Positions 58,622 to 64,000 of a stretch of DNA of 64,000 nucleotides are shown here, piece after piece. The stretch lies in contig NW_017265143.1 in NCBI RefSeq assembly GCF_001638985.1, positions 570,259 through 634,258 on the forward strand, read 5' to 3'. The notes under the pieces were generated by a model, which worked only from the letters and a program-made list of their open reading frames with translations, was not told the origin of the DNA and did not search any database. The translations under genes and the position numbers were made by a program. Source of the stretch: Phycomyces blakesleeanus NRRL 1555(-) (taxonomy: Eukaryota; Mucoromycota; Mucoromycetes; Mucorales; Phycomycetaceae). Numbering within the stretch: position 1 is the first letter of the stretch; every line of letters begins with the position of its first letter.

Positions 58622-61301
58622 TTAAACAGCAGTTGTGTTTGGCAACCCCAAATAAGTGCCAGTCGTTTCTGGGTGTGTATAACGCAAGATGAAATTGAGC
58701 TGCACATACATTACAAAAAAAATTAGAATTTCATTTATTACCAAAAAGCACACACTCCCATCATCTTACCAATAATGCACCAGTCAACAGGATTGTGAGA
58801 CCAATGGGGCCGTACAGATCATCGTAACGCAGATGAGGTCTTGTTGTGATCTGGAAGGCACGGTATCTGTAGCGTCCAAAAGCATAGAAAGCAATAACAA
58901 ACGAGATACCAAAAAACACTGCACCAGAAGTAACACTGATGTTATCTCCAAAGTTGATCAAGGTTAATGCAGCAGTCAACAGGATGGCAGCAAACTGGAG
59001 CCAGCTAATGAATGTACGCTCGTTTGCAAAGAACACCTTTGGTTCCAATCGAGTGGCCAACTCTAAATCTCGCTTGGCCTTCTTCTTCTCGTCCTTCTCC
59101 ATGCCTCCAAATCCATTCAGCTCGTCCTCCTCTTCTTCTGCAGCCTTTCTTTCTTTCTTCTCCTTCTTGGCAGCCTTCTTGGCAGCCTTCCTAGCCTTTC
59201 TCTCTTCCTCGTCCATCGCTTCTTCAATAGTGTAATCCATGCCGCCTGTAAGCCGAGCCCGGCTATCGTTCATCATACTCTCAGCAGGGGTGGCAGCATA
59301 AGACGATCTTGGTGTGTTCTTTCCATAATAAGGATCCACGGAGGCTGTATCGAAACTTCCATCGAATGTCGACACTCGCTGCTCACCAGGTCCAGTCCTA
59401 TTGCGCACTACTCCACCTACACCTAAACCTCCTACATTATTGGTAGTATTAGGAACCACAGGACTGCCGAGTGACTTTCTTGACAGCCCATCAAATCCAA
59501 GTTGAGCACTGGTGTCGCTATTCCAGAAAGGATCGGCAAAGGGGTTCATGCTCCTGTCCTGGCTCTCAGTTGCGCCGACGTCAATGACATAAGACTGGGG
59601 TGTACTTTGCGCATTTCCCTGCGCTCTCTGCTGGTGCTCTATCTGTGCAGGAGTGGCAATAAGCTTCTCGCGTCCCTTGACAGATCGGATTGAGGCACTG
59701 CGTGTTGGGTTTTCGGTCTTGCTTTCCTTGCGCTTCAGCGTTGCGCGCTTCTCAAGCTGTTTCTCCAGATAACCCATTCGATAGTGACCGTCGATTAGCG
59801 GCTTCAGACTCTTGGAGCGTGACAGGCCAGTAAAGTCTCCCTTTGGTTGCTTAGCATTTCGGATATCCAATGTGAGCTGGTCCAACCACCACGGCAGCAG
59901 GGGTAGGCGAGAGTTCCAAAAGTGGGCACAACCTTCCAAGAACTTTGAAAAGCGTGGGACTTCATACACAAGTTTGGAGTCCAGAAGACGGGTCAGCCAC
60001 TCTGGAGGCTCTTGGCCCAAATGGGTCTGCAACTTGGTCTCCAGCACAGCATAAGGGAATCGGTAGACTTGGTCTCCAGGTAGATAGTCAAACGGGTGGT
60101 CGATGCCAACATCCATTCGGCGCCAGTTTCCATTTCTACGCTTGATGTCGTCTTCACGGATAAAGGTCAGGTCAGTGTCGAGAGATATGCGTAAGCGTTG
60201 GTCACCAGGGATCTGGAAGGCAGTGCGGTTGTAAAACACACGCATGACAGGATCGAGCTTCTTTTCTGCAAACGATTTTTGGACACCAGATGCAATAAAG
60301 TAATTTTGTTGAACGGAATCTTCAGACGCACCCTTGGCACGCTGCTCAGCTGCGTACTGCTCAGCAGTGTAGCGGCCGGAGACATAGTCGTTGACTTTGT
60401 TTTCGCTAAGACGGAAGCGATCCTTGACCGATGCACCGTCTAACCAGGGGGCGTGGTGGGTCTTGCGCTCAATGAATATAGACTTGCTAGACATGGGTCC
60501 ATACCATCTGAAGCGAATGGCCTCTGCACTCTCGTCACGCTGAAGTCGGCCTGAATACAGATCAAATTCTGGGTTGTCGTAATAAACGCTGGATATGGCA
60601 CTGTCTGAGGCTTCAAACGGCTTTGTAGAATCGAACACAAGTACCGGTAAATGAAAAAGAAGGATGGCTTTTAGTTCGGTAACATTGTCGGGATGAACCC
60701 AGTACTTTGCTGTTGCTCTTTCAAATGCGTTCTGATCTCCTCCAGCAGCAGCATTTCCTGTGCGCTCCTGGCCGTTCTGTCGACACATATCGTGGAGGGT
60801 CGAGACCTTGACAAGGACTACATCGAAACGCTGTCTGTCGAGGGCTTTTTTGCGGGAGATTTCGACTAGGAGTTGCTGTCTGTCGATGTGTGTGAGTTTT
60901 GTATGTGTGTCGATGAGGTGTTTAAAGGCGAGGAAGTTGTAGCGAGCGAATTTTCCTAGATCGTTGAGTTCGAGAAGGATCTCTGTGAGTGCGTCGTCCA
61001 TGGAGTCAAAGAGTCCATTTGTTGTTGATTGTGCGAGTAAAGGACGTTGTTGGACAAGGATGCGTTCGCAGTAGGCAATACGAGAGTCGATCTCTCGTTG
61101 TTTGCGTGTGATGAATAGATCGATTTTGTCTGCTTCTAACCGAAGAGTAGATTCAAACTCGGCCTCGTCTTGGTTTGACCATCCACTTGCTGCCCGTCTT
61201 TGGATATGGGAATTAATAGAGTCGTAGGCGACGTATTCGAATCTCCAGGGTTCATAGATATTGCCGTTGAATTCCTGGTCAAAAGATGTGTTGGTGGTCA
61301 T
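58622..61301 (-). CDS. VTC-family polyphosphate polymerase paralogue with atypical SPX domain
   Basis: Two exons, 58770-61301 and 58622-58699, give 869 residues. The layout is SPX (1-155), VTC catalytic core (~200-500), a long linker and a three-helix membrane domain (VFFANERTFISWLQFAAILLT onward). The linker includes a Lys/Ala/Glu-rich stretch near 700-745. Catalytic residues are kept: R263/R265 (RFRWYG), IERKTHH, RISLDTDLTFIRED and LETKLQTH. The SPX basic site is not: the position of K26 in the neighbour is Asn (YDSINSH) and the Lys helix is replaced by LAFKHLIDTHTK. This could make it insensitive to inositol pyrophosphates. It is probably a Vtc2/3-type partner of the VTC4-like protein encoded 4.6 kb away on the same strand. 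The intron splits the last membrane helix, and its second exon restores a tail resembling that of the neighbour. Confidence 0.93.
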
Positions 61302-61801: not shown

Positions 61802-64000
61802 TTACATGCGTTGAAACACTAAATAGATAGCATGTACAATTGTCAAATGTTCATCTACTATTTCTAATTCTTCCTCGACTTCGGTGTTGAGATTCTTCTG
61901 CTGACGATCCTTTGAGTGACCTTCTGGGACGGTGACTACCATCTCCTTGAGCTTCAATACACTTCTGTCGATCGCTCGCTCAATATCTTCCAACACTAGC
62001 ATTGACATTGGCCACAGTTTCCCGTTGTCTTTTTGGCGAATATCTTTGGTTCCAATGATCAACATTCCGAGTGGGGCTAACTTCTTGACTGCTTCCAGTG
62101 CAATTTGTACAATCGTCTCTCGGTATAATCCAATTTGACGAGGCTCGATGGGCTGGTGGCCCACCATTACTAGCACAAGAGGTGCATTTTCTAGAGGTTT
62201 TTTACTCATCATAGATTCATAGTGAATCACATCATCAGAGTCTTCACTCATCTCTGAAATTAAGCCCTGTAATTTGTTTTAATTAAGTATTAAACATTAA
62301 TATGATTGTCGTGATTTTCTTCTTGATTTGTTTGCTCGCATGTTTGCTTGTCTTTTAAACTATTTACCAGTTTCAAAAGGGTCTGGTTATTCTCCTCTAT
62401 TCTCTTCAAGCGTAATTTTTCATAGTCTGACAGCTGGTTCTGACTATCTTCTTTGTTATTTTCTTGCTCCTGATCTTGATCTAGATCTAGATCCCGATCA
62501 TGCTCTTGTTCTTCTGGCTTGTCTTTGTGCACATTTTCTAAAACAAAGCATTAAGGGAAAAAAATGGTTATGACAGTAGTTAATTTGACTTACGTGATGA
62601 TGTTGATGATTGGTACTGTTGTTGAACATTATTTTGGATCATCATAGACTATAAATGATTTCTTATTAATAATCACCCGCGCATAAATTACTTGGAAGAT
62701 GTGTAATGATATTTGCGTACCTCTGGGGACATGAAGTCAAGTAGGACTTGTTCCCAGTTACCATCGTCCTTTCCAAACCTTTCCAGCATTCGTGATATGC
62801 ATAGCTGTTCAAAAGTGTGTGTGTCTGTTGGTTTGAAGATCCACACTGTTCCCATAACTACACTCTTTCTTGAAATGGCCGATTGAGGTACTGCTTTGGT
62901 GACATGTTCGACCCGGACATGATCGCGACAGTCGGAATCTAAACGCGAGCATACATATACATACAGATTTATTTATTTTAATTTAATTTTTTTTTTTTTG
63001 GTTTCAGTAAAATATACGTATATGAATCAAATCGAATTAAAAAAAAAGGCTGACAAATGCATATTTTTTTTTCTTTACACACACACACTTACTGTCTATT
63101 GGTAACATTTTGTCAGTGCATTCTAATGGGATTTTCCGAAATGTAGCAACAAATTCATGAGTGAATACCAAGAAATCAAACTGGACACACAAATAGGTTC
63201 CTAGTCCAAAGGCAGAACAATAACGTTGACGTTTGATGATCTATTGTGTTTCCATTGTGTTAGGACGGGGGTTCATAAGCTTTTTTTTATATAGAAAAAA
63301 AAAAACAAATGAAATCAACTTGCCAATTCTTCCAATTCAAATCCATGGTTAATGTATTCTCTCAATAGGTGGAATCCAACAGGAATATAGAAACAATGTT
63401 CACGGTTGTCTCCAATTCCCAAAGTGAGTCTACGGCCCATCTTGAGAAGTCTGTAGAGTATGTTAGTCGCTGCTTTCTAGTAAACAACTTTTACCTCCAG
63501 CTTTCTCGGACCACTCTTCCATATTCGGCCCTAAAGTCTTCCACGCTAGTAAATCTATCGAGAATAAAATATAAAAAAAAAAAGAATAAATGGTGTGTAT
63601 AAGCAGGTTTCAATTCCGAGTATTATACTTGTAATGTCCTACCTTGAAAGATCTCCTTCTAAATGAGTTGAATAAGCGACACAGTCTTTGTAAGGTGGGT
63701 GAGATAAGACATGGTGAAATGACTCGTCCGCGAATAATGCTCCCGTTAGTTGCCTGGAATCGGCTTGTGCAATGATAGGTCGATATTCAGCCGATGTCAA
63801 ACCAGGTGGGACCTCAAAACAACAATTCCGCTGAGATAATGCTACTGCAGCCTATTAATCCCGAATTAACGATGGATAATCAGCAAAGTAAATTCATTAG
63901 AAGAAAACGTAAAAAGAAAAAAAGAAAAAGAAAAGCACGGCCCAGAATGAATCTAGAGTTTTACCGGATTGATATCAACTCCACAACACCTATATGGAAT
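61802..64000 (-). CDS. DNA-methylase-like (N6/N4-type) protein, N-terminus outside window
   Basis: Partial gene: nine exons are visible, 63965-64000, 63643-63851, 63495-63554, 63324-63450, 63093-63240, 62721-62938, 62594-62648, 62368-62537 and 61802-62266, encoding the last 495 residues. The visible part starts in the SAM-binding fold (CGVDINPAAVALSQRN). It continues through ADSRQLTGALF and the catalytic loop SHPPYKDCVAYSTHLEGDLSR, then WRLLKMGRRLTLGIGDNRE and FGLGTYLCVQFDFLVF. HPPY is a variant of the (D/N/S)PPY motif of amino-methyltransferases acting on DNA or RNA bases, and the I-to-IV motif order is the non-beta type. A Gln/Glu/Asp-rich coiled-coil linker follows. A C-terminal region (APLVLVMVGHQPIEPRQ ... 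LAPLGMLIIGTKDIR ... EHLTIVHAIYLVFQ) looks like half of a second, catalytically dead methylase fold. The intron 63242-63323 has a GC donor. DNA versus RNA substrate is unresolved. Confidence 0.7.

Follow-up and report, generated by a model that had tools for sequence, protein, structure and literature searches.

What kind of enzyme is encoded at the right edge of a 64,000-nucleotide stretch of the Phycomyces blakesleeanus NRRL 1555(-) genome (contig positions 570259-634258, hereafter the window), where the minus strand carries base-methylase motifs in a fungal gene rich in introns? The gene probably specifies an amino-methyltransferase of early-diverging fungi that acts in the nucleus on a ‘histone-read, DNA-write’ principle and in which a class I methylase core is preceded by a large chromatin-reader region and followed by a half-methylase domain. 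This answer draws on what was observed of the gene structure, the domains and their predicted folds, their conservation and taxonomic spread, and a profile relation to plasmid methylase-like proteins.

On the contig extended beyond the window, the predicted gene comprises 23 exons that encode 2372 residues without internal stops, and it runs past the window edge to the equivalent of window position 70971 (L005:9230). The introns of this model are GT-AG save one GC-AG. In the downstream 13-exon model, all junctions keep the frame; the acceptors are AG and the donors GT, apart from a single GC. Two public P. blakesleeanus entries match the product without gaps at 100% identity: P0154 (960 residues) corresponds to residues 1413-2372 and P0183 (PHYBLDRAFT_158785, from NRRL 1555(-) and marked partial) to residues 2145-2372, the last 228 of 2372, encoded at window 61802-62648. 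Residues 1-1412 are supported by the exon model, by Pfam matches and by repeats seen in orthologues. The gene is real, intact and strongly conserved in early-diverging fungi, and its methylase may have been overlooked until now because the public Phycomyces entries cover only part of the protein. A preliminary description of the window had pointed out the VDINP, SHPPY and GDLSR landmarks, a coiled, acidic stretch and a C-terminal region whose end is at 61802, in an intron-rich gene. All these landmarks are present, the full model has its many introns, and extension of the contig rightwards, proposed there as a check, recovered motif I (SNFLGRGTD). The methylase and its likely second half-domain had been noted there; the reader region, which lies beyond the window, had been missed.

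The identity of the core is given mainly by profile comparisons. The Pfam family PF01555 (N6_N4_Mtase) is matched over its cut-off by the full protein (1.2e-10, 42.2 versus 26.7 bits) and, at E-values up to 1, by all 10 cores scanned from different members, the best at 5.6e-13 and the first with 47.7 bits. The generic Methyltransf_11 family is also matched by the 10 cores, more weakly (best 4.9e-5). For MT-A70 (PF05063, the family of MTA1 and METTL3/14/4), no match is listed at E-values up to 1, either for the full protein or for the 10 cores, and the motif is HPPY, not DPPW. The preliminary description's bacterial-type base methylase, unlike MT-A70, is upheld by these results. The MetB type (PF02384) is not listed for the full protein and is found in a single core of the 10, at 0.083. 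Membership of the MT-A70, MetB-type and tRNA-methylase families was considered and rejected in profile tests. Elsewhere in the Phycomyces genome there are separate matches to PF02384 and to UPF0020, the tRNA-methylase type. A search of the whole genome with PF01555 gave no match, we think because the core is split among many small exons.

Within the core, a motif X-like region is followed by motif I, then by DINP and by motif IV, whose SHPPY (minus strand, 63690..63704; placed by a 123-row alignment) is the predicted catalytic loop. In the beta-type order of PF01555, exemplified by the DNA modification methylase TTHA0409 (2zie), motif IV stands ahead of motif I; here motif I comes first. TTHA0409 is the best profile match in the PDB (1.7e-12), through two stretches in swapped order, of which the second is weak alone (15.0 bits, E 0.13), and residues 18-79 of the first core align to the end of the PF01555 profile (158-220 of 221). 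Given these swapped alignments, we read the core as circularly permuted with respect to TTHA0409. By consensus, motif IV carries Asp, Asn or Ser ahead of PP[Y/F/W]; in the Phycomyces protein PPY is present and is preceded by His. This HPPY occupies all 121 non-gap rows of the 123-row alignment and, of the 120 best orthologues among 150 matches, 118 contain SHPPY and 111 the searched motif I pattern, a frequency far above chance. Over residues 1801-2372, the mean frequency of the top residue is 0.79 in the core, 0.57 in the C-terminal domain and 0.12 in the linker.

The HPPY signature is shared with a bacterial family. A scan of GTDB with two short core peptide patterns, which detects only relatives carrying one of them, yielded 14 pattern matches, including 4 remote relatives at 28-31% identity. 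Among the 398 genomes of a single bacterial phylum, 4 match at 1e-8, one of them the starting genome and the other three over partial stretches. The HPPY methylase family of these relatives, carried by conjugative plasmids and mobile elements, is found in 862 plasmid records, 783 of them predicted to be conjugative. Its members are annotated, among other names, as hypothetical protein, site-specific DNA-methyltransferase or DNA adenine modification methylase. In an hhalign comparison, the fungal core matches this family with P 2e-16 over 165 columns (27% identity). The plasmid methylases (L006, L008, L009, L026-L028) have in common with the fungal core the motif order, HPPY (6 of 6 aligned) and the YS...DLSR, GDxR and KxQ...HE segments. 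Unlike the fungal protein, they stand alone, at about 295 amino acids, without chromatin readers, and they end in a segment resembling a winged helix (Forkhead is matched weakly, at 0.011 and 0.049), whereas the fungal chain has other domains. NCBIfam gave nothing over cut-off for three members of the family from genome contigs. We know of no experiment on these plasmid methylases, and none was found in a literature search that left subscription papers mostly outside. Among phage families, PHROG phrog_498, labelled DNA methyltransferase, matches the core collinearly (4.3e-13). A further phage family of unassigned function, phrog_12517, also does so (residues 36-239 of the scanned piece, 7.6e-12). 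A viral or phage origin of the gene was rejected, as the scan of viral contigs gave 34 pattern matches and 0 relatives, tblastn against phages gave none and the PHROG matches are remote.

The region preceding the core is made up of chromatin-reader modules. From the N- to the C-terminus, the protein is composed of four MBT/Tudor-type repeats (residues 445-504, 632-696, 883-947 and 1205-1265), a ZZ-like finger, an extended PHD finger (ePHD), a second ZZ-like finger, a GATA-like finger, the methylase core and the C-terminal half-methylase. Pfam places MBT (PF02820) over cut-off in the third repeat (9.3e-6), Tudor_4 slightly under it in the first (24.5 versus 25.8 bits) and zf-HC5HC2H_2 over it in the ePHD (3.1e-10). 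The third repeat matches L3MBTL3 (3.4e-10) and PHF20L1 (1.4e-4), and the ePHD matches KMT2D (1.8e-9) and PHF6 (4.5e-6). The ZZ-like fingers, judged from their cysteine pattern, are two cysteine-rich segments on either side of the ePHD, and the GATA-like finger is below the Pfam cut-off (20.2 versus 26.8 bits). In 120 orthologues longer than 1300 amino acids, royal-type repeats number four in 60 proteins, three in 35, two in 23 and one in 2; in orthologues with HPPY, 388 of 388 such repeats lie N-terminal to it. Simple self-written cysteine patterns detect the first ZZ in 116 of the 120, the second in 117, the GATA-like finger in 114 and the ePHD core in 90.

The C-terminal domain, located in the last exon (window 62191-61802, minus strand), is predicted by two AlphaFold models to have a beta-alpha-beta-alpha-beta-beta arrangement, with the same topology as the second half of the core, without a PPY motif. 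Its predicted local distance difference test score (pLDDT) is 94-98 across most of the domain and falls to 54 in one loop. Its motif IV is degenerate, although the His is kept, and is followed by the segments GTKDIR and IVHAIYLVF. Of the possible origins, a half-domain duplication of the core is likely, on statistics that are modest. The competing explanation, doubtful though by no means negligible, is that of an Alba/IF3-C-like nucleic-acid-binding domain. The Alba fold has the same topology, and similar scores are reached by Alba chains and by a trimmed methylase. A search of PDB sequences with the domain profile brought nothing useful (one match, E 0.92). Against the Alba explanation, the 50 Foldseek matches listed, TTHA0409 and bdelloid N4CMT among them, are all methyltransferases (two being the related CmoB), although with low template-modelling scores. 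Comparison with the core by hhalign gives P 0.014 and 0.0029, with helices and strands (helix-strand-helix-strand) aligned in the register expected, the first of these scores being reached by 3 of 100 column shuffles, and comparison with the plasmid HPPY family gives P 0.051. His is kept at the motif IV position in 119 of 123 rows, and the domain of a distant member ends in IIHEYLLVY, which resembles the THEF segment of the core. Pfam lists no Alba family for 13 of these domains, and N6_N4_Mtase itself appears in just one of them, where its value of 0.078 does not surpass that of an unrelated family (0.048). For the second half-domain put forward in the preliminary description, the topology is confirmed by the models, and shared descent with the core is likely though statistically modest. 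The conserved segment that follows the core was also tried as the first half of a pseudo-methylase; hhalign against the first half of the core gave E 0.21 over 8 columns, and no such claim is made.

The substrate of the core raises a second alternative, that of an RNA methylase (N2-guanine, Trm11/TrmN/Trm14-like, or of a small nuclear RNA or cap type) tethered to chromatin and modifying nascent RNA. Its basis is structural: the closest collinear folds include the catalytic domains of the tRNA N2-guanine methylases Trm11, TrmN and Trm14, so that an RNA substrate is still conceivable. No DNA-specific methylase is among the highest-ranked Foldseek matches listed for the core, an absence that is no evidence in itself. 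Sequence comparisons make this alternative rather unlikely. UPF0020 (PF01170) is below cut-off in the first core (13.2 versus 22.3 bits) and is matched by 4 of 10 cores at E-values up to 1 (best 7.7e-4); for the full protein, Pfam lists neither UPF0020 nor THUMP. The Trm11/TrmN/Trm14 motif is DPPY, in contrast to the HPPY of the fungal core. More generally, no tRNA or rRNA methylase profile is over cut-off in the full protein or in the first core scanned; a match to a well-characterised family of this kind, the outcome that the preliminary description had named as contrary to its proposal, is thus not seen by sequence.

It is improbable that the enzyme is catalytically dead and acts as a chromatin scaffold. 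The His before PPY is non-canonical and, with DPFxGxG as the consensus of motif I, a Ser replaces its first Asp; but conservation is strong at motif I, DINP and HPPY, the core is better conserved than the C-terminal domain, and HPPY is common to all six aligned plasmid relatives. Similarly improbable is a protein N-methyltransferase acting, for example, on histones or chromatin factors through a PPY-type fold like that of HemK-type enzymes, since the HemK-related sequence matches (TIGR00537 0.14, 2b3t 0.48) are far weaker than those to DNA methylases and the NPPY signature of HemK is absent from the uniformly HPPY-bearing alignment, even though the reader domains would put the enzyme near histones.

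The favoured DNA amino-methyltransferase is distributed through the early-diverging fungi, where the orthologue check suggested in the preliminary description found full-length orthologues. Three protein searches, limited to proteins inside a length window around the query, gave 33 matches for the core, 150 for the full length (the best 120 listed) and 66 for alignment A2. Named organisms among the matches listed are early-diverging fungi throughout, the taxa being read from the names. They belong to the Mucorales, Umbelopsis, Calcarisporiella, Endogonales, Glomeromycota, Mortierellomycota, Basidiobolus, Kickxellomycota (Coemansia, Smittium and others), Dimargaritales, Syncephalis, chytrids and Paramicrosporidium (Rozellomycota). 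No Dikarya, and no other eukaryotes, occur among the named matches listed, at the sensitivity of these length-windowed searches. One match, P0196 (E 8.9e-4), is unlike the family and was excluded from alignments and tree.

A maximum-likelihood tree was built from 53 cores, namely 49 chosen eukaryotic rows (Phycomyces and 48 matches) and 4 bacterial rows. It groups the Mortierellomycota (100/99), Glomeromycota (98/96), Dimargaritales (100/100), Kickxellomycota (98/95) and Umbelopsis with Mucorales (98/93), with a weaker chytrid group (93/93). The eukaryotic rows, metagenome rows among them, are split from the bacterial ones at 100/100. The eukaryotic part starts from a polytomy, a very long branch leads to the bacteria, and a number of distant eukaryotic rows have long branches and drew a flag from the tree program. 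The recovery of fungal groups is the pattern expected from vertical descent, and recent bacterial transfer is rejected on this ground. Whether the fungal ancestor already possessed a third DNA amino-methylation system, apart from the MT-A70 complex and MetB, is evenly balanced: such a system, a giant reader-writer for N6-methyladenine (6mA) or N4-methylcytosine (4mC) with HPPY and a pseudo-methylase half, would have been present by the time Rozellomycota and chytrids parted from the other fungi, kept in many early-diverging lineages and lost in Dikarya.

Some orthologues depart from the common form. Those of Mucor ambiguus, Parasitella, Mucor bainieri and Mucor lusitanicus (P0064, P0065, P0066 and P0068) are shorter, at 1547-1640 amino acids, and have 55-58% identity against about 63-74% in most other Mucorales; the branch of the Mucor pair in the tree is longer (0.27). 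Mucor is described as the species with low, asymmetric 6mA (PMC11258239), and the coincidence with shorter, diverged orthologues is a correlation only. Entrophospora sp. SA101 (Glomeromycota) has several distinct copies, alleles or fragments (P0098, P0102, P0105, P0164 and P0165). Automatic names are found in public records, for example ‘DNA methylase N-4 [Mucor ambiguus]’.

Comparison with known systems helps to situate the fungal protein. Bdelloid rotifer N4CMT (Rodriguez et al. 2022, PMC8885841) is likewise a eukaryotic fusion of a PF01555 domain with a histone reader of the royal family, following the same logic of reading histones and writing on DNA, and is described as confined to bdelloids. 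Its methylase is of the beta type with permuted order and SPPY, and its chromodomain is C-terminal, whereas the fungal protein has a collinear order with HPPY, numerous readers on its N-terminal side, a half-methylase at the C-terminus and a broad distribution in early-diverging fungi. In MTA1/MTA9 (AMT1/AMT6-7), which PMC12695648 places in fungi with 6mA, a catalytic methylase works with an inactive partner of the methylase family. The coupling of an active methylase with a presumed inactive partner is similar, but there it involves MT-A70 domains, DPPW and two proteins, and here a PF01555-type core with HPPY, joined in one chain to a half that is presumed to be inactive. Mucor MetB (PMC11258239) is also a prokaryote-type DNA methylase resident in early-diverging fungi; it differs as a PF02384, type I/IIL-like enzyme from the PF01555 protein of Phycomyces.

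From this architecture we infer a nuclear protein whose MBT/Tudor-type repeats and ZZ-like, ePHD and GATA-like fingers would dock on linker DNA or on nucleosomes that bear modifications. Its class I core would bind S-adenosylmethionine and methylate the exocyclic amino group of a flipped base, with N6-adenine as the likelier target and N4-cytosine as the alternative. The C-terminal half-methylase may be an internal partner without catalysis of its own, holding the core stable or clamping DNA in the way that MTA9 assists MTA1. We think that the enzyme is distinct from the known fungal 6mA writers and that 6mA is more likely than 4mC.

Within the window, the 3′ part of the gene (residues about 1881-2372) extends over 61802..64000 on the minus strand, as supported by the exon model and by identity to P0154. 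In the direction of transcription, and according to the exon model complemented by AlphaFold for the secondary structures, the CCGVDINP exon with the acidic loop after motif I (63965..63989) is followed by that of strand beta4, motif IV (LSHPPY) and GDLSR (63643..63851, also covered by PF01555), by that of helix alphaD (63495..63554) and by that of strand beta5 (LTLGIGDNR) and helix alphaE (63324..63450). The GC-AG intron comes next (63323-63241), its splicing matching the public protein P0154, and then the exon of strands beta6 and beta7 (KRQRYC ... THEFVATFRK; 63093..63240). Downstream lie, as judged from conservation, the conserved post-core segment (RKSVVMGTVWIFKP ... SRMLERFGKD; 62721..62938), a poorly conserved linker exon (62594..62648) and an exon with an acidic linker and a conserved helix (YEKLRLKRIEENNQTLLKL; 62368..62537). 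The last exon (61802..62266) contains the C-terminal domain, delimited by AlphaFold, Foldseek and hhalign. The next gene, also on the minus strand (58764-61301), encodes a VTC and DUF202 protein (VTC 2.2e-72). In Parasitella, the gene model P0111 joins the methylase, then VTC, then DUF202 in a single chain, which suggests a fused annotation and a gene order conserved with Phycomyces.

The literature on DNA methylation in these fungi has followed other families. The candidates of Lax et al. (2024), who compared two species of which Phycomyces is one, are metA (PF05175), metB (PF02384), metC (PF05063) and mta1 with its partners; the Phycomyces gene is not among them in the part of the article available (PMC11258239). 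A June 2026 review of fungal DNA methylation names, in the text and table rows covered, only the MT-A70 complex MTA1c and MetB as 6mA writers of early-diverging fungi, and neither Tudor nor N6_N4 occurs in its text (PMC13297926). The 2025 Nature Genetics survey used the MT-A70 domain as its query, and PF01555 does not occur in its text (PMC12695648). A 2021 review of fungal DNA methyltransferases concerns 5-methylcytosine (PMC7862722). No published mention of the fungal HPPY protein was found in the literature covered, from which subscription papers were mostly absent.

The Phycomyces protein is thus a candidate for a further, so far unstudied writer of a DNA mark of the kind that reads histones and writes on DNA. 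It could be the second bacterial-type amino-methylase joined to histone readers, after bdelloid N4CMT, in a fungal gene old enough that its tree recovers the fungal groups. The HPPY motif, common to the plasmid family, makes a catalytic variant directly testable. Early-diverging fungi are leading models of eukaryotic adenine methylation, and a further conserved enzyme with its own chromatin readers could tie histone state directly to a DNA mark.
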